From NCBI RefSeq assembly GCF_030936135.1, contig NC_082600.1:27349943-27413942 (forward strand): a DNA stretch of 64,000 nucleotides, read 5' to 3'. Positions 4,627 to 45,616 of this stretch are shown piece by piece (the first letter of the stretch is position 1; each line of letters starts with the position of its first letter). Under the pieces are notes generated by a model. That model was not told the DNA's origin, made no database searches, and worked only from the letters and a program-made list of their open reading frames with translations. The position numbers and the translations under genes are program-made. Origin of the DNA: Gavia stellata (lineage: Eukaryota > Chordata > Aves > Gaviiformes > Gaviidae).

Positions 4627-6654
4627 TCAGGCATCCACAAGCGTCAGCCCATCATGCAGGGCACGCTTCCACATGTAATAAGTGGAACGGGCCGTCAGTG
4701 GGAAGCGGGCACTGAACTCCTTATACGTGGGGAAGGTCTTCGACTCGAAGCGCTGCTGCAGGAACAGCTTGGCCTGTGCCTTGAACTGGGCAGTGGCAAT
4801 CACATCCATCACGAACATCCGGCTGTTCGCTCTCTCCGACATAGCATAGCCTGAAATGGTGGTGTTATACGGCATGGCCAGTGCTGGCTTATCTAGGTGC
4901 TTGGTGGCTACCTCCATGTGGCACTGGGGCTTGCGGACTGGCTCCATTCTCGGAGGCACCAGGGAAGGCACCCGGTTCAATGGCCGGCTGGAGCTGGTCC
5001 AGGGCAGCCGATGCTGCCTGAGGGGCCGGCCACTGCCCTTCCAAAACCAGTAGGCTGTAGAGGAGATAGAGGGGTAGCGCAGGCGGTACTTGCAGAATGG
5101 CAGCTGCCATTGCTGGACCTGCATCCTGGCCACATCTCGCAGCTGCTTTCTCCAGCACAGAGAGGGCTTGAGCTGCAGGAGACTCCTGGGTGCTGGCTGG
5201 TCTCCATTCAGCCTCTTCCTAACAGGCACACTGCTTGGCTTCAACTGCAGGAACGGCTTTCCTATTGCTAGAGGTTTCTGGTTATCCAAGGGAGACTGGG
5301 GGGGTTTGAAGTTAGGGTTCTCCTTGATTGCTTTTCTTCGCCAGTTGTAGTAAGTGGACCTGGAGATGCCAGGGAAGCTACGCTTGAAGCACCTGTAAGG
5401 CACCAGAGTGTTCATGGAAATGCATTTCTCCAGGTAGGATTTGGCTCCTTGCATGAAGATTCCTGCTTGGATGGGGTCTAGGGAAGGACTCGGGGATCTT
5501 AAGCTCCCCCCTGAATTTGCCGGTTCATCCACATCAGCCTTTTTTTGGACATCCCTGTGAAGCTCCTGCAACCCTTGGGCCTCAGCCAGAGCAGAGGCAT
5601 CACCATTGACCATGCTCTGCATCTCATGCTTCCAGGCATAGTATGTGGATCGGGAGATTTCTGGAAACATTTGTCGGAAGTGCTGGAGGGGGATTATATT
5701 GCCCTCCTGAAAACAGGACTGGAGGAAGTGTTTAGCTGCAAACCTGGCAGCTGCTTTCTGCCGGTGTTCACGAGACTGGCGCTTCCAGCGGTAGAAGGTG
5801 CTCTTGGTAATGCTGTACCGGTCACGCAGGTTGGAGTAGGTCAGCTGGGGGTCACTGTTCAGCAGCTCAAGGGTCTTCATGGGCTGGACAGGAGGCTCTG
5901 GTAAAGGCATTGTGGGTTCCAGCTCCTCCAGGCCAACAACAGCCACAAAGTACTGCGCTTTGAAGACCTGCCGGGAGAGCTGCTGCCCTGACCACATGAT
6001 GTGTAGTGTGGAGGTTCGTGGGCCACACTTCCTGGGCCGGATAAGCCGGTTGAAATAGGGACGGATCTTCAAATTACTCATGGGGTAGATGGAGTAGATG
6101 TTACACTGCAGTACTGAGGCAAGAGCATAGACATGCCACATGTTGGCAAAGGTGCCAGGAAAACAGGTAGCTTTGATATCAGCATCAAAGATGGCCTCCA
6201 GGATAGCCATGGGGAGGCTGGTCATCTCCGGGGTCTCCTCAGTGCAGAGGGAGTAGCGGGCAGCCTGCAGCATCACCTTGGAGTCGATCATGCCATTCAA
6301 GTAGTATTGCTTGTGCAGCAGCATCTCCACCACTGTACGGACCTGCAGTTCCAGGCTGAGGCTGGGGTTGCCCCAGAGCAGCACGCTGGCAGCCTCAAAG
6401 AGGCGGTTCCCCTCACCTTTGCAAACCAGAGGCAGCATGTTACTTGGGGCATCCTCAGGATAGAGGCTCCTGGCTACCCGGTCAACCTCCAGCTCCTCTT
6501 GGAACTGCCTCCCACAATAGCCAGGCAGGGAGAAAGATGACAGGGTCCTCTCGGCCTCCAGTGCGGCACTGGTGAGGCCCTCCAGACCAAAGCATTCGGT
6601 AGCTTCCTGCAGCTCCTGCAGCACAGACTGCACCAGCTGGTGCCGCTGGATCAT
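4627..6654 (-). CDS. VRTN: Vertnin (VRTN), single intact coding exon
   Basis: This is a 675-residue protein, close to human vertnin (about 700), and matches it along most of its length. Examples are the LYPEDAP, KTLELLN and C-terminal ALHDGLTLVD segments. Vertnin is a nuclear DNA-binding protein known for control of thoracic vertebral number in pigs and for somite segmentation. I start at Met 6654 because it lies one base after a clear acceptor (pyrimidine tract ending TTCAG); the frame stays open 92 codons further, but that is intron. Residues about 65-240 resemble an OTU-protease fold with the catalytic positions replaced: GEGNRLF at 80-86 where OTUs have D-G-N-C, and QYF at 234-236 where the His lies. 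Five helix-turn-helix-like motifs of the form (S/A)RSTYYxWK end near residues 292, 343, 440, 539 and 663. The fourth (SSTAYWFWK) is the most diverged. There are no frameshifts. The arrangement with ABCD4 is divergent. Confidence 0.95.
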   Translation of the reverse strand: MIQRHQLVQSVLQELQEATECFGLEGLTSAALEAERTLSSFSLPGYCGRQFQEELEVDRVARSLYPEDAPSNMLPLVCKGEGNRLFEAASVLLWGNPSLSLELQVRTVVEMLLHKQYYLNGMIDSKVMLQAARYSLCTEETPEMTSLPMAILEAIFDADIKATCFPGTFANMWHVYALASVLQCNIYSIYPMSNLKIRPYFNRLIRPRKCGPRTSTLHIMWSGQQLSRQVFKAQYFVAVVGLEELEPTMPLPEPPVQPMKTLELLNSDPQLTYSNLRDRYSITKSTFYRWKRQSREHRQKAAARFAAKHFLQSCFQEGNIIPLQHFRQMFPEISRSTYYAWKHEMQSMVNGDASALAEAQGLQELHRDVQKKADVDEPANSGGSLRSPSPSLDPIQAGIFMQGAKSYLEKCISMNTLVPYRCFKRSFPGISRSTYYNWRRKAIKENPNFKPPQSPLDNQKPLAIGKPFLQLKPSSVPVRKRLNGDQPAPRSLLQLKPSLCWRKQLRDVARMQVQQWQLPFCKYRLRYPSISSTAYWFWKGSGRPLRQHRLPWTSSSRPLNRVPSLVPPRMEPVRKPQCHMEVATKHLDKPALAMPYNTTISGYAMSERANSRMFVMDVIATAQFKAQAKLFLQQRFESKTFPTYKEFSARFPLTARSTYYMWKRALHDGLTLVDA

Positions 6655-9600
6655 CCTGAAGGGTGGCAAAAAGAAAGAAGTTACCAGAGGTGAAGGCAGT
6701 GCACGCTCCAGACTGCCAGGGGCCTGACCTCCAGGTCCAGCTCTTCCCCAAACGACAAGACAGGGGAAGAAGGTAGAGGAAAGACCACTGCTCACCCCTC
6801 CACCCACACTCCCAAGGACAAAGGAGGAAGCCTGGGTCCCCAGGCAGACCTGGGATGGGGACATGGGCTCAGTTTGCTCTCCAGTGACCTCCTGTGGGCA
6901 GCACACACAGCATACAGCCTCCAGACACACTTGTCTAGGTGAAACTAAGGAGTGACTGCATCCATTGGAGTGTGAAGCCAGGTCATCTCCTACCTTTGCA
7001 CACCTGGCTTTGCACCCAGCCTCACCCCTACACCCATCTCTTCCACCAGTAGCTCCATCCCTTTTGTTTTACCACCCTGCTACCAGCACCCAGAGAGAAG
7101 AGTGCCTCAAAGGGGAAACATCTGTCACCTCTGCAGGAAGGGACCTGTGACAGAGCAACACTGCATGGGTGTGTGGACAGACCTGGCTCCAGGTGTTCAA
7201 GCCCAACAGAAGAAGGGCAAGGAGGTTGCCCCTCTCTCAGAGCAGGGCACAGCAGCCGCACCCATTGCATACAGTGAAAACTGCTGTCACAGAACCTGGG
7301 ATGGGGGGAAGAGCAGGAGCCAGTTCAAGCCACGGTTACCACGGCCTGAGCTGACACTAGATGTCACTTGCTGCTCAGCAGACACACACCACCAGCCAGG
7401 AAGAAGCTGCAAAAGGAGGGCTTCTCCGAGCTACCAGGCAGGAGGCAACCCAAAAGTGCAGATGGAGCATGAGTGCTGGGTGGGTAGTTCAGAGGTTGTA
7501 TAGAGCCCCCTTCCCTGCCTGAGCCCGTCCCAGTCCTGTCCTCCCTCCCTCCACATGCTAGTTTCCACTCAGGCAATCCAAAGGGTCAAACCAGCATTCC
7601 CCTCTTCGTCATTTTTTTTTTTGACACCTACGTGGCTCTGCCACAGCCACTCCAGGAGCTTTCATGACGACTGCTCAGTCCTTACCCCATGATCCAGCTC
7701 CATCAGTGCAACCCTCTTCAGCACCTTTTCCCCACCAGCCAGGTCAGGCCCCTCACCCCAGTCTCTCCCTCTTGAACCAGTTTTTTTCCTCAGGGACCAC
7801 AACACTTACTCAACCAGGGAACCCAATCTCCTCCATTTTCTCCCAAGGCTCATTCACATGCCACCCCCAATATGTAGGGCATCACTTTGTAGTCTACTTG
7901 ATTCACATCCCAGCCCATGACCCACCTTCTCACAGCACTTCACAAGTATCACTATGCACTCGCAGCTCTGCAGAGACGGGGAAACAGCAGGGCCAGGCAG
8001 GAAAAGCAGCAGCTCTGCAGTAAAGCAGATGTCCTGCCTGACCTCTCCCAATTCTCAGCCCTGCGTCCTGCTGCAGATAAGGTTATTATTGCCATAACAT
8101 CTGCAGCCCCCAGCCACAACCAAACAGCAAACAAAACAAGGTGCCACAGAATCACATGGCCACATCCCAGCTACTTCACCACAGGGAGCCTCCATACTGC
8201 TGCTGCCCCTGCCTTTAATCAGGCCACAGCTAGTCAGCAGGCCCTTCTGCTCCAAGCTCCACGGTCTCCTGCATGTCAGAGGCCAGGGCCCTCTTACAGC
8301 TGTTCCCACAGCTGTGGGGCATCAGGTATCAGAGACAATACAGGAGAACACACACAGCTGTGAAGCAGCGGAGATAAACTTGTCCTAAAATCCTGGTCTG
8401 AGCTAGTATAGGATTGTTACTTTGGGTCAGGTCTGTATTTTTGTTCTCCTGGAGGTTCATAGAAAGTTATTCTGCAGAGCAGTGTTTTGACTAAGCCTGT
8501 GGTGAACATGTGCTTGAGGAGTTGAAGCAGAGGTGCCCTCAGGAAAGCCACAGAGCTGGCAGAGCCCAAGTTCTCCTTCTCCATTGCCTGCCAAACCCTT
8601 TCAGGGCCTACCACCTCCCCCTGCAGCAGCCACCTCCTCCCCTTTCAGCCACCGCAGCCTGACTGAGCACTAGCCCACCAGTGGAGCCAGGAAAGGCAAG
8701 ACAAGCTTTTCCCCTGGAGGGAGTGAAGAGCTAACACAGGCTAGGGAGCATCAGTAACAACCCTGGTCTTTATGACCTGGTGGGCATTTCCCATCCCCTT
8801 ATAGCTGGGGGGGGGGGCAAGAGGGGAAAGCGGGAGGCACAAGACAATACTCTTCTTCAGCAATAACCCCACAGCCTCAATGTCACTGCCAGCTCCTGCT
8901 GCCCAGAGCAACAGGACCTCAAAAGCAATCCTAAAGCAAAACATGCAGCTGAAACAGCACAGATGAGCTCCCAGGGCAGGGTGGAGAGGAGCCAGATAAG
9001 CCAGAAGCAGAAATCAGCCAAGCTGGGGGCTTTGGTTCATCACTAGATAAAACCCAGCAGCTCTCAACACAGAGGACCTGTTGCAAAGGGGACATTTTTC
9101 TACACACACCCACAGCGAAGCCAGCTGAACACGACAGACAAGTGCTCCCTAAACCACCTCAGCACCAAGAGTCAACCAAGGGAGCTTTTCCCGGCTGATA
9201 AAGGAGGCTTTAGCTAACCTGGACGTTTTTGCATTGTAACAGATAAGCAAGCACTTGCAGATCACATTCCCTCACCTAAACTGATGGGCTGGTGGCATCC
9301 AGTAGTGCAAGTTCCCCAAGCCAGCCCCAAAAACGCTCCCACCAGCAGGAATCCAGGAGACCTCAGCCCCTGCTGCCCCGGCTGCTCAGGACTGCTGGCA
9401 GCTTGCAGGAGCAGGGTTGTCCGTGAACCCCAGCCCAGCTGGGTTAGGTGTCTCGCTTCCCAGCCTCAGCTGCAGGCTCAGGCCACCCCAGCAGTAAAGG
9501 CTCTCATTTGAGAGAAGGTTTGAACCACCACAACCACACAACAGAAGTGGTAGTCTCAAGGAGCTATCTAGGCTAGAAATATCACCACACTAGAAATCCC

Positions 9601-34605: not shown

Positions 34606-37600
34606 ATGTTTATGAAGAAGAGTCAGTATTTGTTAACTAGACTGCTGTATCTTTTCCTTCTGGGGTTTGCTTTGGAGGAGATGCTTGCATATTGGCAGTG
34701 GTCCTGGACTAGACTTGCTGAAGAGCAGACCAGGAGTAATATACCTATCCAGGGCTGGGCATCCTGCCCTGCTGCTACCTCCGCAGCTACTGCAAGGCAC
34801 AAGGAGTGCCAAGGAGGGCTTTTGGCCCTCTGCTTTTAGGGGAGGAAACAGAACTTGCCTCCCTTTAGTGTTCTGCCTATGATGAGTCATATTCTCTCCC
34901 CTGCCTCCCATAGGTGTTTGGAGACAGAGGTTTTGAGGGTCTCTGTGCTGTGGAGAGGTCACTCTGAGACTACAGTGGAGGTACGGTCTCTGAACACTTG
35001 CTGGGCACCAGTTGCTTATTGACATTTCTGGATGTGGCCCTGGTTCTGCAGTGAAGGAGCAGGACATGGCTGTTGGCAGAGCCAAGCTAGCAGCTCTTCT
35101 GCCCCTCCACCAAGCACTTGCATCCCTCTGTTATGCTGCATGGCTTCATGGTCATCCAGGATGGTTAGGTCCCCGAGCTCATTGGCCTTGTCCTCCACAA
35201 TTTTCCTTAGCAGCTGATGCATAATCTTTCCTGAGCATGTCTTGGGCAGCTGCTCTGTGACCTGTGATGGAGAGGAGCAGAACTAAGACTGAGGAAAAGG
35301 GGTTGGCCAGGCTGCTGGGGTGGGTGTTGGACCAGCCTGCACACGTTACCTGAAGGTACTCTGGAGCCGCGTACTTAGCGATCTTCTTTGGATCAGCTGC
35401 CGTAGCTCAGCAGCAAGAGTCTCCTGCATGTAGCCACTGTCCTTCTTCAGCACAACAAATGCATAGGCTCCTGGCAGAAGGACCACCAGGTTACTGAGCA
35501 CCATGTCCAGCATGCTCCTGGGAGCCTGCCTGGACTTAGTGCCAGGAGAGGTCCTCTCTGCTGGTAGCCTCAGGGTATGCTGTGTAGCCTGAGCTGCAGT
35601 GCTTTTGGCCATGTTGCTGCTGCTGCCACCTTATGCAAAGCCCGGCTGGTCTCATGTGTAGATTGTGATGGCTGTGCCAAGATCCCTGCTAACATTGGCA
35701 TAGTGTTGCTACCGGGAGTTGGTGTGACAGTGCCACTTCCCACTGCAGTGCAGTAGCCCCAACAGAGATGTTTCAGGGGCAGGAAAGCAATTATCTTACC
35801 TTCTCCCTTGATCTTATGTGGGTAGCCGATGAGAGCAGACTTTGCCACTGCCACGTGGTGATTCTGGAAGAGAACAGGGCTGGGGTTGGGCTCAGTGCTT
35901 TCAGCAGGCTGGCTGCCACCTGGGAGCTGCCCTGACCCAGCTTGGCTGCTGCAGCCCATGGTAATGCGGAGAGATAAGGAAAGGTCCTCAGATGGCCTCT
36001 GCCCTTTTTCCTTCTTGCCTCAGTAGGTCTGTCTGGAAGCACAAGTCTTCCCCACTGCTCCTGGCTGCTTTAGGCTTGCACCTTCTAGACTCTGTTCTGT
36101 GCCTCCAGGTTGCTCCACCAGGTCCCACAATCTTTACTGGCCCACAGATGCTCCTTCTTAACATGCCTGGCTGCTGCTTTGGGATTCACCCACTTACACC
36201 ATCAACCTTATCAGCCTTTGTCCCTACCTTGCTGCAGAAAGCCAGAATGGGAGGGGAGAGGGTGGGAAGCTGTTCCCACAGGCAGGCTGGGGGTCCAACA
36301 CTGCTCCCTGCTGCTACAGCAGCAGTGTGTTTCTGTCTGGGTATTTCAAAGAGGCTTCCCTGAGCACCACCAGTGTGTCTTTGCTGTCCCCTCAGATGGC
36401 TTTACCTCCTACCCACACCTCTTACCACAACATCCTCCACCTCCACAGTGCCCAGCCAGTGTCCGCTGATGTTAATGATATCGCCAGCTGTCCTATCAGC
36501 TGGTAGTAGCCCTCACTGGTATGATACACACTGTCTCCAGTGAAGAAAACCCCTGCAATGGCCAGTACTGTGCCATAGTCACTTGTTGCAGTGAGCATAT
36601 GAGCTGCTCACCAGCCACATTCTCACCCCACCCCCTCTTCCTCTCTGTTGGCACCAGCACTGGCAGTAGTCTGCTCCTTCCTCAACCGCTCAGGGTGAAC
36701 GTGCCTGCCTGCCTTGTTAGTCTTCTGCCTTTGTTGGTACCTGCTTTGTTATCAGGCTCCTTTCCTCATTCTGCAGCGCGCTGGCTAATGCCCAGCCTGC
36801 CTCATCACCGCAAACAGGGAGCACTTTGCTCCAGCGTAGGTGCCTGTGCTCCTGCTGCTTCTCGCCTTCGCTTCACGTCAAGACACACACACTCTTGGGC
36901 TTGCTCAGTCCCTCTGGATGAGTGACAGATGCCAACAGGGTTTGTAAGAGATGCACCAAGAGACCTCTCTGTGCTTGAGGGGACTGGGGGCAGAAGGACA
37001 AATCCACTGCCCTAAAACCACATGTGATCCAAGGAAGAAGGCTGGTGAGAGAGACCCATTCCCAGGGCAGTACTGAGATGTTGGGCATGGGGAGATGAAG
37101 GGCCTCAACACTGTGGAGGGTCTGTGGAAGAATGAAGCAGCAGTACCAGTTCTCCTGAGTCCTTCCCCCGTGCAGAAAACCAGCAGGCAGACCCAACCAA
37201 ACACCTCTGCAGTGACCTGCCATGTATTTTCCTTACCTGGATAAGGAGTCAGATAGGTTTCCAGAAATCTCTTGTGGTCATTGTAAATGGTTCGTGCTAT
37301 ATCTGGCCAGGCTTGTGAGATGCAAAGAGCGCCAGAGATGTTGTTTTCCAGAAGGATGTTTCCCTGTAAAATAGTTACCTTTTAGTAACTGTAGCTGAGG
37401 GTACCTGGGATGTCTAGTCATTGCCTGTTTAACAACCCTGTCATGGAAATGTCAGGCAAGGCAGTGGGGAGAGTCCTGTGCCCCTGGCTCCAATGGGACA
37501 GGCTCACTCTCTCCCAGCAGATGTCTGCAAACAGCTGCCTACCATGGTGGGATGCAGGGCCCCTCCAGGGAGGCTGGCTGTCCCTGCCCACTTACCTCAC

Positions 37601-38543
37601 CTTGGAAAGACATCTGCCAGGGAACCCAAGCACAGCCCATCCTGTCAGGACAGAGCAAGCCAGAAGACAGCTCCTGCACTAGTTGGAAGAACAGCTTCAC
37701 TGTTAGTCCCTTTCCAGTAAGGAAGGTTGCCATCTAGCAGAGATGAGCAGGAAAGATGCGCTTACAGATCTTCACTCTCCTCAGCAAGTACATGCTGCAA
37801 GTGCCTGGGGGTAAGCAGGCTGAGCCAGTGCCTGGGCTGCAGGTTATAAATGTAGCTTGTCATCCACGAGGGAGGGGCTGATCCCAAAAAAGGGTCTCAT
37901 AGCCATGCCTGGAATGATTTCAGCTCCAGGAGTAGAAGGACAGGGTGAGATACAGATGCCTCCTGTTTCTGAAGCAAAAGAAACTGTAATGCTCATCAAA
38001 GTCAGGGACAAGAGGAGAGCTGGGTAGCACTGCTTGGCCAACAGCCTTTGCCCTGGCCCTCACTAGAGGAACAGGGAGAAACTGCTTCACCCCTGGAGAA
38101 GCAGCAGTGGCTTCCTAACCAGAGGAAAAGACTCTTCCCTTCACAGCTCTCCGCTGGGCCCAGCCTGTGGTCTGCTCCTGCGGCAGCAGAACCATTGCTG
38201 CCTGTGTCCTGGCATCAAGCCACCAGCTCCCTGCCTGCTGCAGGTCTCACAGGGTGGCTGTGGCATGTCCCAGCTCCCCTGAGACACCTCACTCCCCAGG
38301 GTTAAGATGGACAGGAGTGGTCTCAAAAAGGACTGTGGCGCCACCATTGCAGAGAGGGCCATAGACCATATAGGTATGCCCCGTGATCCAGCCAATGTCT
38401 GCCACACAGACAAAGATGTCCCTGTCCTGGTAGTCAAACATGTACTGTGCAAGAGAGGAGAGGCAGTGAGGGGTACAGCCTGGGCCTGCCCTCCTGGCAA
38501 GGGGGACAAGTGGGAGCAGTGTACCCTCTCTCAGCCCTAACAT

Positions 38544-38598
38544 TATTCACAGAATCACTAAGGTTGGAAAAGACCTGTAAGATCATCAAGTCCAACCA
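38544..38598 (-). mobile_element. CR1 LINE 3'-end fragment
   Basis: Read on the minus strand, this matches the well-known CR1 3' terminus: GGTTGGACTTGATGATCTT, then CTTTTCCAACC, ending in an ATTCTGTG-like octamer. Only about 55 bases are recognisable. It lies about 100 bases upstream of exon 6 of the ACSS1-like pseudogene. CR1 is the dominant LINE of birds and other reptiles, which supports the host assignment. Confidence 0.8.
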
Positions 38599-38599
38599 T

Positions 38600-38695
38600 A
38601 AAAAAAAAAAAAACCAAACCAAAACAAAACACACCCACCCACAAACCACAAAATACACCACAACCCACACCAAAACAACCCACCCACACCACACA
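38600..38695 (+). repeat. Strand-asymmetric A/C-only tract
   Basis: There are 96 bases made of A and C alone except for one T at 38654. It starts as poly-A, passes through CAAA and ACCC-type units, and abuts the CR1 fragment. It looks like simple sequence grown at or beside the CR1 insertion. Confidence 0.75.
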
Positions 38696-41600
38696 GCATC
38701 ATGCACCATGCATCCTTCTGTCTTCTCACCACCCCTCTAGGGACACCTTCTTCCTGCAGAGTTTTTTAAAACATTATCAGAAAAAAATAAAATGGCAGGT
38801 GCTTTATGAAGGCGCAGAAGGAGAGAGACACATTAAAAAACCAGAAGAAAACACAGCCAAATTTGCTCTTTTCCAAAGGAGAGCGCTACAGCCTTTCCTT
38901 CCTTCTGGTAGTGTTTAGACAAGGCTGATCCAAGGATCCTGTAGCACCAAAATGGGAGAACTTTCAGGGTGAGGATGGTCCCTCCACATCTACATGACTG
39001 CATGGAAGGAAATGAGTTGTAGGCAAGGGCAATGTGGTGGAGGACTCCTTGAGCCACCCCCAGGCACTGCTGGGCTCCAAGCCCACAGTAAACACTCAGG
39101 AAAACCCTGAGCTCAGCAAGGAGCTCAGCATAGGAACACTGAGGCAGCAAGCAGAGGGACTGTGAGGTGCCTCAGCCCAGAGCCACCCCAGCTTGCCCAC
39201 AGGAGTTGGCACCTCTCCGCCTCAGCTGGGTGAGCGCAACCCTGTGCCTGCAGGCAGGCAGAAAGCAGAACAAGCTCTTCTTCTCGCTTCCCCATTTATT
39301 CCTCAGGAGACCCTTGACTACAAGGCTGGAGTATGAGGGAACGACACCTGCCCTGTGCAAGGCAGAACTGAGTGCCATCAGACTGGCAGCAACATGTCCA
39401 GCTTCCTCAAGTACTCACCTCTGGTTCCTTTAGTCAGTGCCAGGAAAGCTCCCCAAGGGGCCGGCCTCCCACTAGCCCATCACTTCTTGCCTTCTGCTCT
39501 AGCATCTGCTGTTTAGGACCTTCCCACCTCTTCCTGCAGCTCCCCGTCTGCAGGCTCCCAGCTGGGGACTCCGGGACCTCACGTGCTCCAGGGTGCTCAT
39601 AATGGAAACTTCCCTTGCTTGTTCTGTCTCTTTTTAGCTGAGCAGTGAATTATGGTAGCAGCGGTCTGCCCCATCCAACTGAAAAATCTGAGCGTGCCAG
39701 CCCTGTGTCATGGTTTCCAGCGCTCCTGAGTGCTAACATGGCCACATGCTGCTCGCTCCCTGCATTGCCATTCTGGGATGGCAGCCCTGGTTCTCGCAAA
39801 CCAGCTCTGATGGTCTCAAGAGGGTCACGTATCATGCTGGGCATAGCTGTACAGACAGCTTAGCTCACAGGAAAACCAAGGGCTTCCACACACCCCCTGC
39901 ACACATGCCAGGAGGTCTGGCCGCCAGCACTCACTGCTGACAGAGAAGCTGTGTCATAGGGTGCGTGGTCTGAGGCACTACTGGAACTTCAGTCACACAC
40001 AGGGAGAGCCAGACCCAAAGCTAAGGGACTGTTCAGAGAGGAACTCCCTCTTCCAGAGGACTCCACATAATGTCTTAGGAAATGACCCTTGCAACCGTTC
40101 CTGCAGCCAAGTGCAGCTCCATGCTGTGCTCAGTTCCCTTTTATCCAGCTCTGTTAGAGTTTGCTTTGGGCATGCTAGGGTTTAAAGGCATTCCTCTTCC
40201 CAAAGATGACCCACAGTCTTCAGGTATAGACCCTTTGTCTTGAGGGCACTCACCAGCTTTTACAGATATCCTCAAATGTGCCCCTCCCAGAAGCACTGCC
40301 TTCAATCTCCCACCTGAGCTGGGGTAGTTACACTTATGGAAAGCAAGCCAGAGGTTTTAGGAGCAAATTAGCATCTTTCTCCTCACCCAGTAATATAAAA
40401 TTACCCTTGCAAGGCTAAGCATCCCTGGCAATGATTCAGTCTAGGATAGGGCAGTGAAAGAAAGAAGAAAGCCAAGAAGGTAGCTCAAAGGAGTATGTGT
40501 TTGGGAGGCCCTGCTCCAGAGCCTATGTTGCTCTTCCCCACTACCTGTAAGCAGATGTGCTCTGCAGGACTGATGCCCTAGGAGGGCTTCCCAGAGACTT
40601 TGCTCTGGATAAAGATGAGCTCATGGTGCAAAAAGGCAGCACATCTATTCCCTGCACTGCCTATGAACTGCTAGCTCATGAGCACTCTGTGGCTGGGATC
40701 CATTACCTTGTGCGTGAGAGCAGCAAACAGCAAGTAACCAGCTTGGGAATGAACCAGACCCTTGGCTTTGCTGGTACTGCCTGATGTGTACAGAAGGAAC
40801 AACATGTCTTCACTGTCCATGGCAGCAGGCTTACAGCACACATCCTCCTTCATCATCTCCCGCAGGAGAGAGAACACCAGTTCTCTCCTGGGGTCTGACA
40901 GGCTTCCCTGTGTTGTCCCTGCACCCGGTTGCGCACTTCTCCCCCGAGCCTCATTCTGAGGACCTGCGCCACCCTGCTCGCCCCATACCATCCTCCCCAC
41001 CTCTGCACCACTGCTCCCCTTGCTCACCAGCCTGAACTCTCTTTCGCCTTGCTGAGCTGGCAAATGCTTTCCTCAGCCAGAGCAGACCTGCTGAGTAAGA
41101 GGCAGCTATTTTTATGCTGCTGCTGCTCTGACCAGCACAGAAATCTTCCAGGAAGCCTTTCTAGCATTAATTGCTTGCAGATGGGATGAGCAGAGGTTGG
41201 GAGACCTCTGTGCAGCTCCAAGGAGCTAATAGAGACGCATGGCAGGGGCTCATCTCTTCAGAAACAGTGCTCCATGCTGGCAGCCTGGCCATCCTGTGTG
41301 CCACGAATAACGGGCACATGAGCAACCACACTGCCTGCTCCCTCGGACACAAGCTGCCAGCAGTGCTCACAGAGGGTGCCAGGTCCACCAGCAGAGCGGT
41401 GTGTGACAGCGCAGTGGCAGTCCCAGGCTGGGCTTCCAATGTGTCAGCCCATGTTTGGGGTGTTTCTAACCCCTGGTCCACCCTGCTATGAGCCCTGGTT
41501 TATACTGCCTCCCCCTGACAGTACAGGGCTGGTGCTGTGGGAAGAGCCACCAGTTACCCAACCTGACATGACAGCTCCTGGGACTGTCCTGAACTCATGT

Positions 41601-43895
41601 GCAGCTCCAGCTGCTGCAGGACAATGTCCCCACGTTGTGTCAACACCAGCAAAACTGTCATGGCCAGCCAGAACCCTCTCTCCACCCCCTGTCCGTGCTC
41701 CCAGAGCAGGCTCATTGCCCAGGGGAAGTGGCAGTAGCGCCGGGCAGCCTCTCACCACCTCCAGTGGCACATCCAGGGCTGTCACGGGAACCTTGTTGTC
41801 AGTCCTCATGGAAACCAGAACCCGTTTCACTCCTGGGCACTGCTTCACAGCCTGGTCCCCTATCTTTAGCTCAATAACCTTGCCGCCTCTCAGCCCTTGG
41901 TTCACTGTGATCACCGTCTCTGACTGGGCTGCAGAAGGCAAAAGAGCCACATAAGCAGCTCTGCTCCTCTCCATCAGTCACACAGCAGTTTGGCTCTACC
42001 ATGACCCTGCACGTCTCCCAGCCCATGTTACTCATGTCCTCCATTTAGCAAAAACAGCAGCTTTGCATCTTTGTTTCCCATTCATTCCTGCCTGTTTTGC
42101 ATCCCCTCAGAGGAGACGCTGTATCCCAGCCCTTCAGTCCTTGGGTGAAGGAAAGAACCAGTCCTTCCCAGGGGCTGGAAGGTATTTAGTGAGCCCATGT
42201 CATTTCCTGGGGTGCTAATCCCCGCTCCATGGCCAAACATCATGGCAGAACACCCTCAGTTAGCCCAGGGAGCCTTACTCAGAAAACCTTTGCCATCAGC
42301 ACAACCCTGAAGCCCCCCAGCTGCTGAACCAACTAGCTCAACACTGTCCCCCAAGGGAAACACATGTCCCTGTTACCCACTGGCTCTTACCATCCCAGAT
42401 CCTGTCTGCTAGGGAGTCTGCACTGAACCCGGCGAACACCACAGCATGCACAGCCCTGATGCGGGCACAGGCCAGCATGCTAGCCACCGCCAGCGGGCAC
42501 GGGGGCATGTAGATTGTCACCCTGTCACCATGTTTCACCCCTTGCCATTTCAAGGTGTTTCCCAGGCATCACGTCATCTCCAGCAGTTCCCTGCCCAAAG
42601 ATGCAATGGCACAGTTAGACACTTTCTTGCAGATCTTACCTGTGTGCATAAAGATGGAGAGCCTCAGAGTCACAGGCACACAGCTTACATCCCTATGCAC
42701 CCTAACCCCCCACACTGGAAGTCCATGGGAGAGCTGTAAAATGGCAGCAGGAAGGAAAGGAGAAGACAGTCTCTAACATGGGCCGTTATTTATGGAAAAG
42801 AAATAAATCAGAATGGCCTCTGTACAGAGCCTGACACTCTCACTGGCCAGCATGAGGAACAAGCCATAGGGCCAGCAACAGCCACTGGCAATTCCTCTGG
42901 CTCAGCAAGCCCACAACACCCCAGCTGACTTTCCCAGTGACAGCCTGCACATGTCTTATTAGCCCATATAACTGGAGTGACACACTACCCTGCAAGGCTG
43001 GAGGCTACACGTGAGGAGTTAGATATCTTCGCCCATGAAAACAGGGCCCCATGCTTTGCTAAAGTCCTCCACAGCTTGTGCCCGCCAGAGAGAACAACAG
43101 CTGTAGGAAAGCAGTGAGCAAAACGATGTCTCCCCCAAGAAGCATCCCTCCCAGAAACCACAGCTTGGCTGTCAGTGACTCATTTCATGGAAGGGCTCTC
43201 CATGCAGGGAGATTGACAGGAGTGGATGGTCATGTTTGTTGCCTGAGGTCTGGAGCCAGAGAAGACAGAGGGACTTGTTCTGTGTGCAGAGGGATTTAAG
43301 TGGATTCTGCAGTGGAGACTCAGAGAGCAGGCAAATTGGGCTGGAAGGTGGGGGGCTCCATACCAACCTGGCACAGCTGGACAGGCAGTCCCCCCAGAGA
43401 GCCAAACCCAGCAGCACTGCTGACGTGCGAATGAGCATGGGACTTGCCAACACCCATGCGGCTGTGAATCTGGTCTCTCTTCCAGACCATTTACCTGTGA
43501 GTTTAGACACCGGGAACCTTGCTGGGAAGGCACAGGTGTGACTTTCCCATGTGGTCTTACCTACAAGCACAGTACTGGCACAAGGGGCTTAAATCTGCCT
43601 CCCCAGCTGGGTAGGGACTCCTCAGGGCCCAGAAGGTTAATCAGGAGGTAGGCTGAAGTCTCAGATCAGCACAGGCAAGCCAACAACCACCACACTGTGG
43701 ATCTATCTATGTGAAGGGGTGCTGCACCCCCTCACATGATGCACATCAGCAGATCAGCCCTGTGCAATGTTCATGCACGCTGCAATGTGTCTCTCGTACG
43801 CTCAGAAGTAAGTACTGACCTGTACGTGACCCGCACCTCCTCTCCTGGTTCATCCTTCTCCCAGATTAAGGCCACATGTCGGTCCAGACAATTCA

Positions 43896-45300
43896 CTGGA
43901 AAAGACGACCCAGTCTCATTGCCAGAGCAACCCTCAGTACCTCTTAACTCCCATAGAGCCAGCACTGATAGTCCCATTTTGAGATCAGAGTCAGGGCTGT
44001 GTGTGAGTCTTCTCAGCATTAGCTTCTTGTATCCACGGAAACAACCTTTGTGTGTACTAGCTGGCAGATCACAAGCACCGTCCCAAGCCCGTTACGCTCC
44101 TCACTACTCTGATACCTACCAATCCTCACTATCAGCTTCACCCTTGATTGCAACCTAGTGCAGTCCAGAGCAGAAACTAACTGAAGTCTCTTTGGCGGTC
44201 ACATCCCCAATGCCCTCAGAGGGCCCAGCAAACATTAACTCAGCCATCACTCCACCCAGCACTGCCTTGCAGCTGCCTCTGGGGTGGACCAGGGCAGTTT
44301 TTTAGTGGTGGTGTTCCTAAATAACAAATGTGGGACAAAGCTAAGTTCTGCACAGGAAGGCTGCAGGGTGCATTTGTCCAAGATGGAAGAGAGCCAGGGC
44401 CAGGAGTGCACAGCCTGTGGCTTTCCAGGGACATAGTAGGCTGAGGCTTTGGCTGTAATTCTTCAAAGAAAAGTTTCCTGCATTGCTGGCAGCTACAGTT
44501 TCCTCAGAAGTCTTGTTCCATTCTGTGTTTTCCTTAAACGTGCTACTGAGGTCATGGGATGATGCAGCAGTCTCAGTTTGCATACCAAAATGCCTTTTTT
44601 TCCCTGATCATTCGTAGTTTTACAGGAGAGAAAGAAACACACATGAAAGAGGGAACGGTAAGATCTCAAATCCCAAAGGCAAATAACTCCTGCTCTCCTG
44701 CCCAAATGGACTCTGTAAGACCTGATTTCTGAGAGGTCTGTCTTGTATTTTGAACATTGGGACCAACAGCACTGTGAGCAAGACACAGTGTCACCAGCCC
44801 CTATGTCTTCCCCTGGTAGCCCCCCTAAGGCAGTAGCCCCAGCCCACAAAAGAAGAGCCTCCCACTGCTGTGGGGACTTCCAGTACCACTCATTGCTCCT
44901 ATGTTTTGCTTTCTGCAGATGCATACTGCCTTTGGCTGGGCAGGGATAGCCTAAATGCAACACTGCCTGCTGAATGGACAGGGTTCAGTGCAGTTGCCTG
45001 TTGTCCTGCAGAACAGAGCCGCTGCACTGCTGTGGGATCCATGGAGGATGAGGGAGAGCTGCCTGGCTCCCAGAACACTCTGATCCAGCTGCAGCCCCTC
45101 CAGCGAGGCCCAGTTGCTCCGTTAGGACCAGCCACATCCTTACACTACAGCCACTGCAGGACGAACCAGACCTTTTGGGGATCCCCCTTGCTCCAACCCT
45201 TTAACTCTGTGCTCCTCCAGTCTGCTCCCGGGGCCAAAGCCCTTCACAGAGAGGCACCCACAGGCACTTGTTGGGCTCCCATGTCCATCTCCCTCCTTAC
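43896..45300 (-). other. ACSS1-like: ACSS1-like pseudogene intron 1
   Basis: The donor GCGG|GTAAGG (45301/45300) and acceptor TTTTCCAG (before 43895) are both intact. I see no other feature in the intron. Confidence 0.65.
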
Positions 45301-45616
45301 CCGCCACGTTCAGCTGCCTGCCCAAGAACCAGGAGACCCTGCCCTGGTGCAGATGGCAGTCCTGGACAGAGTGGAAGGGGGAGATCCAGGTGAGCTGGCT
45401 CCTCCCTAGTGCTCCCCAGAAGGCGTCCCCCTGCTCCACTGACACCTTGTGCAAGCCTTGGTGTTCCTTGGGTCTGGGGAAGGTGACGGCTTCGGGCATG
45501 TAGGCAGTGAGGGGCCCATGGCTCCAGGCTCGGGCAGCCGCCGACCCAGGGGGGCATCTGGGAGCCTGAAGAAGAGCTTTGGGGCAGCAAGCCCTGGCCA
45601 TCAGCCTGGCCATCAT

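Follow-up and report, generated by a model that had tools for sequence, protein, structure and literature searches.

The window studied here is the whole stretch of 64,000 nucleotides (nt) of Gavia stellata DNA at C7:27349943-27413942, where C7 stands for contig NC_082600.1, and the genome searches cover the assembly of 1.32 Gb in 1185 contigs. From left to right the window holds an 813-codon frame, ABCD4 on the plus strand, the remnant of an ACSS1-type acetate--CoA ligase gene on the minus strand and VSX2, also on the minus strand. A preliminary description had placed an intron-bearing ACSS1-type gene, unable to make its enzyme, between VSX2 and ABCD4. In agreement, we identified the neighbours on either side and could read 12 of the 14 exons in order on the minus strand, from 45616 down to about 35151, with a frame that is continuous through exons 1-6 apart from one TGA, and again through exons 9-10. 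When the lesions are read through, the translation matches TIGR02188 (acetate--CoA ligase) with 618 bits and an E value of 1.6e-185, this being the top family of 92 matched (25 shown), although the score stays below the cut-off of 724.95 set for that model. It carries the ACAS_N, AMP-binding and AMP-binding_C domains in this order, aligns with solved Acs structures at E values as good as 1.2e-142, and lacks 75 residues that are present in all 75 aligned prokaryotic enzymes.

The same genome encodes an intact gene of 14 exons and 675 amino acids at C37:1027939-992210, in which 13/13 introns are GT-AG with exon boundaries placed by homology and frame. Given its 73.8% identity to the presumed human ACSS1 sequence, we take this predicted gene as the bird's own ACSS1; being intact, it bears out the exon plan and shows where the remnant is damaged. 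The 14-exon plan and phases that had been borrowed from human ACSS1 agree with it. By inspection, the two genes agree in the order of their domains, in the plan of 14 exons and in where and in which phase the introns fall, and the 10 intron positions lying between exons present in the remnant match. They differ in that identity is 56.1% and in that ACSS1 has its frame and splice sites intact, whereas the remnant has nine lesions. Six of the 11 exon lengths compared are equal (exons 3, 5, 6, 9, 10 and 12), the end of exon 6 having itself been set by ACSS1, and four differ by lesions (exon 2 by -21 nt, exon 4 by -3, exon 11 by -1 and exon 13 by +2). The features of the remnant are as follows, with ACSS1 meaning the bird's own gene.

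45301..45616, minus strand: exon 1, with its ATG at 45616 and the GT donor kept; 18 nt longer than in ACSS1
43820..43895, minus strand: exon 2, 76 nt against 97 in ACSS1; seven codons gone, in frame
42391..42590, minus strand: exon 3, 200 nt, equal to ACSS1; holds the in-frame stop
42569..42571, minus strand: in-frame TGA stop of exon 3
41756..41928, minus strand: exon 4, 173 nt against 176 in ACSS1; one codon gone
40707..40859, minus strand: exon 5, 153 nt, equal to ACSS1; acceptor GG against AG in ACSS1
38297..38444, minus strand: exon 6, 148 nt when ended at the ACSS1 boundary; donor not GT
37969..38296, minus strand: expected place of exons 7-8 (231 nt in ACSS1), both absent
37856..37968, minus strand: exon 9, 113 nt, equal to ACSS1; CT where the GT donor is expected
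37237..37363, minus strand: exon 10, 127 nt, equal to ACSS1; acceptor and donor canonical
36426..36552, minus strand: exon 11, 127 nt against 128 in ACSS1; frameshift at about 36484-36482
35800..35863, minus strand: exon 12, 64 nt, equal to ACSS1
35350..35470, minus strand: exon 13, 121 nt against 119 in ACSS1; net frameshift at about 35390-35388
35151..35261, minus strand: homologous part of exon 14, whose frame continues to a stop at 35016-35018

Nine lesions were counted: a stop, two net frameshifts, two codon deletions, three damaged splice sites and the loss of exons 7-8. The preliminary description had already reported the in-frame TGA, which reads 42571-42569 on the coding strand, a frame switch near 36484, now placed at 36484-36482, and another at 35381-35390, which is a net shift at 35390-35388, as well as the lost donor of exon 9. 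Its figure of about three frame lesions falls short of the actual decay, since exons 2 and 4 carry deletions, exons 5 and 6 have altered splice sites and conserved sites have changed. It had also called the gene dying. Disabled it is, and already dead rather than dying. As for the low end given at 35016, this is indeed the stop of the exon 14 frame, while homology ends near 35151. The remaining splice sites are canonical, with AG at 10/11 acceptors and GT at 9/11 donors. An in-frame AG sits 3 nt downstream of the GG acceptor of exon 5 and could serve in its place, so this change need not be fatal alone. All five solved homologues shown have the seven codons that exon 2 lacks. Several independent disabling lesions, as expected of a unitary pseudogene, are therefore on record, and the remnant has neither one open frame nor a complete adenylation domain as a working ligase would. 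In intron 5 we also observed the end of a CR1-like repeat at 38560-38587 (called with what we presume to be the CR1 consensus), beyond which a simple stretch rich in A and C extends to 38690; none of the eight tandem-repeat entries of the window falls inside the remnant.

Exons 7-8 had been described as leaving no trace, and this was borne out. Neither the 326-328 bp that separate exons 6 and 9 nor the rest of the window gave a credible match. Across the window the bird's own ACSS1 exons 7-8 reach a best E value of 3.3; as a control, its exons 5, 6 and 10 find the remnant at 2e-21, 2e-25 and 2e-16. With the 75 prokaryotic Acs enzymes as queries, the equivalents of exons 5, 6, 9 and 10 gave 75, 75, 75 and 72 matches at the right place, and only weak, scattered matches came from the equivalents of exons 7-8, 247 in all from 68 of the 75 queries (best E value 0.02). 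Genome-wide, exons 7-8 returned four matches, solely in ACSS1 and the ACSS2-like gene and none from the remnant locus. Within the reach of these searches nothing credible turned up in the intron, in the rest of the window or on another contig, and the idea that the missing exons are concealed there was rejected. In ACSS1 both exons sum to 231 nt, so the frame is kept despite their loss, which removes 77 codons including the conserved GEPIN and DTWWQTE stretch.

The remnant has also changed at sites where the family hardly varies. The reference set consisted of 75 prokaryotic enzymes with a frame of at least 560 codons, out of 80 loci (5 dropped). At columns identical in all 75, the remnant is changed in 11/86 and own ACSS1 in 4/86; the presumed human ACSS1 and ACSS2 sequences are each changed at 4/86, and two fungal enzymes at 4/88 each. 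At 97% columns the counts are 21/124 for the remnant vs 8/124 for ACSS1, with 14 changed only in the remnant, 1 only in ACSS1 and 7 in both (Fisher 0.017; a sign test by hand on 14 vs 1 gives about 0.001). At 90% columns they are 46/179 vs 28/179, with 25, 7 and 21 sites in the same order (Fisher 0.026). In the TSGSTGKPKG loop of exon 5, a glycine and the proline are altered, both counted within the 11/86, and the remnant does not keep all the family-invariant residues that characterize a working ligase. Conserved arginines are changed at 5/13 positions in the remnant, 2/13 in own ACSS1 and 1/13 in each of the two fungal enzymes. The five altered ones became Q, W, C, H and Q, all as CpG decay would give; one of these sites is variable elsewhere (70 R and 5 N among the 75 enzymes), so not every change is telling.

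One could argue that the gene works and only appears broken through sequencing or assembly error, given that exon 13 is hit at a short run of A and that no reads stand behind the bases. However, lesions of so many kinds make sequencing error a poor explanation, as the preliminary description had argued from fewer of them: besides the stop there are two frameshifts, deletions of 21 nt and 3 nt, changes at three splice sites, the loss of two exons and an excess of missense changes. Moreover, the search of the assembly did not bring up the absent exons at any other place, the 813-codon frame at 4627-7068 in the same window is open and own ACSS1 is intact. We consider the chance of such an artefact almost negligible.

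Which gene the remnant was can be read from its relatives. A genome-wide search with the read-through scored 31 candidates and gave 24 matches, 12 on C7, 7 on C37, 3 on C20 and 2 on C4. All 12 on C7 are the remnant locus itself, and no further copy of this paralogue appeared in that search; the C20 gene resembles the presumed ACSS2 sequence, and the C4 gene is, as a guess only, ACSS3. The remnant shares 59.6% of residues with the presumed human ACSS1 sequence, against 56.1% with own ACSS1 and 41.0% with the presumed ACSS2 sequence. A tree was built from 13 sequences, with 6 of them taken from the 75 prokaryotic enzymes and own ACSS2 represented by 395 residues of pieces. In it, own and human ACSS1 group together with support 98, the remnant falls just outside them and ACSS2 lies elsewhere. 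This placement outside bird plus human ACSS1 means that the duplication is older than the split between birds and mammals, with support 98 and with presumed sequences in the human rows.

The neighbourhood was compared under a prediction that we assumed from human chromosomes 20p11 and 14q. Among 31 matches of the VSX2 exon homeodomain, the second best (88%) lies at C37 1269055, on the contig and strand of ACSS1 and 241 kb away from it. Phosphorylase matches fall on C7 or C37 in 25/25 cases, and of the 42 GDA1_CD39 matches C7:27.55 Mb and C37:1.31 Mb have two each. On C37 the VSX, phosphorylase and GDA1_CD39 matches all lie within 75 kb (1269055-1341162), and on C7 (3709779-27550635) 24 Mb separate the phosphorylase gene and VSX2. 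Both blocks thus share paralogue pairs of VSX, phosphorylase and GDA1_CD39, as expected of ohnologues from the early-vertebrate genome duplication (2R). The simplest reading of the C7/C37 pairs is a duplication of the whole block, and hence that the remnant is the ohnologue of ACSS1. The duplication predates the split of birds and mammals; its 2R date we infer.

A retrocopy was rejected because the introns are kept. A recent, lineage-specific duplicate of ACSS1 that has since decayed would also share the 14-exon plan and phases that the remnant has in common with own ACSS1. It was likewise rejected and seems to us very remote, given the tree and the duplicated block: the remnant is nearer to human ACSS1 than to own ACSS1 when those two share 73.8%, it stands outside both with support 98, and it adjoins VSX2 in a block duplicated with respect to the VSX1 block.

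Taken together, the remnant is very probably a unitary pseudogene, that is, the dead remainder, at its native place and with introns kept, of the sister copy of ACSS1 that arose in the early-vertebrate genome duplication. The gene would once have encoded a mitochondrial acetate--CoA ligase, presumably forming acetyl-CoA from acetate, ATP and CoA. Its production is now blocked by the stop in exon 3, the two later frameshifts, three non-canonical splice sites and the absence of exons 7-8, which encode a conserved part of the adenylation domain. The loss may have been tolerated with ACSS1 intact and ACSS2-like exons present. A crude neutral model on one stop, three splice-site hits and five indels, with the loss of exons 7-8 entered as a single indel, puts the change since the loss at 0.034 substitutions per site (0.016-0.058). 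Assuming a yearly rate of 2.0e-9 substitutions per site, and one indel for every ten substitutions, this would correspond to some 8 to 29 million years. Taken singly, the measures yield 9, 15 and 34 million years. The age should be taken softly, as an order of magnitude.

It has also to be weighed whether the remnant keeps a noncoding role, as a transcript or as regulatory DNA of VSX2 or ABCD4. Its position between these two genes would suit such a role, and the ATG, most splice sites and the exon order are kept. Nevertheless, no Rfam family was matched at gathering scores in the window, and the exons are altered at sites that ACSS1 keeps, observations that are both silent on regulatory DNA. 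We regard this role as improbable.

Several points weigh against the unitary pseudogene as just described. Its basis is one assembly, without reads or RNA, and the human ACSS1 and ACSS2 sequences in the tree and identities are presumed ones. The excess at the 100% columns is small (8 changed only in the remnant, 1 only in ACSS1, 3 in both; unpaired Fisher 0.10). VSX1 was expected near ACSS1, and no match was found in C37:965001-1085000, which extends to 57 kb upstream; it turned up only at 1269055, at a distance of 241 kb. The other 38/42 GDA1_CD39 matches are on C9, C24, C6 and C31, and this pair alone is weak proof. Regarding exons 7-8, the biggest pile of short matches (59/247) lies at 9.7 kb and was taken as chance, and the own-ACSS1 exon 7-8 query also matches there, over 9 residues at an E value of 4.5. 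The genome search with these exons scored only four candidates and missed the C4 gene, which is more distant; a copy that has diverged strongly could therefore escape it. Finally, the view that a working copy is kept in birds draws on papers and gene names.

With respect to the neighbouring genes, the uninterrupted 813-codon frame at 4627-7068 is on the minus strand, shows transposase-like helix-turn-helix matches and is presumably VRTN. ABCD4 was recognized by an exon near 29.6 kb whose top solved-structure match is ABCD4 (E value 3.5e-24). VSX2 shows an OAR motif in frame at 49.1-49.6 kb, its main homeodomain exon lying just past the window edge; we take the name from a presumed VSX2 homeodomain, with 93% identity over 46 residues. 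Beyond the window, C290:489563-505723 has four AMP-binding exon matches spaced by about 5 kb, three of them equal in score, and similar ones occur on C269, C286, C314 and C767. These are predicted to make up a tandem family of genes, or of gene copies, resembling acyl-CoA synthetases.

A second Acss1 paralogue was reportedly the subject of Castro et al. 2012 (Gene 497:249), to go by its title. The loss of the ACSS1 sister paralogue in vertebrates, with patchy retention, is an already known theme. One passage of PMC3890633 cites Castro beside the words 'lost in tetrapods', at odds with a copy in a bird unless they are loosely meant. No paper treating the present locus as a bird pseudogene was found in the open-licence PMC literature. 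The remnant constitutes a clean, checkable late loss of a genome-duplication sister gene, ordinary in kind and potentially datable, where one assembly shows the dead gene together with the living sister and the two duplicated blocks.

In chicken, passages of several papers report ACSS1B or ACSS1L as protein or mRNA (PMC10531955, PMC8566343, PMC8147372, PMC7764366, PMC11426133). This gene (E1BZT9), a liver protein according to such passages, is likewise a bird's second ACSS1-like gene and, judging by its name, probably the living orthologue of the remnant. It is also possible, although we think it rather unlikely, that the loss is common to a whole clade of birds and marks a shift in its members' use of acetate by liver mitochondria, ACSS1 having taken over; if so, the chicken enzyme of laying and heat-stressed liver would have no counterpart in those birds. 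In the passages on chicken, ACSS1B/ACSS1L is reported as protein and mRNA, whereas in Gavia stellata the gene is dead; studies of chicken liver count this enzyme among the regulated acetate enzymes, and the Gavia stellata genome does without it.

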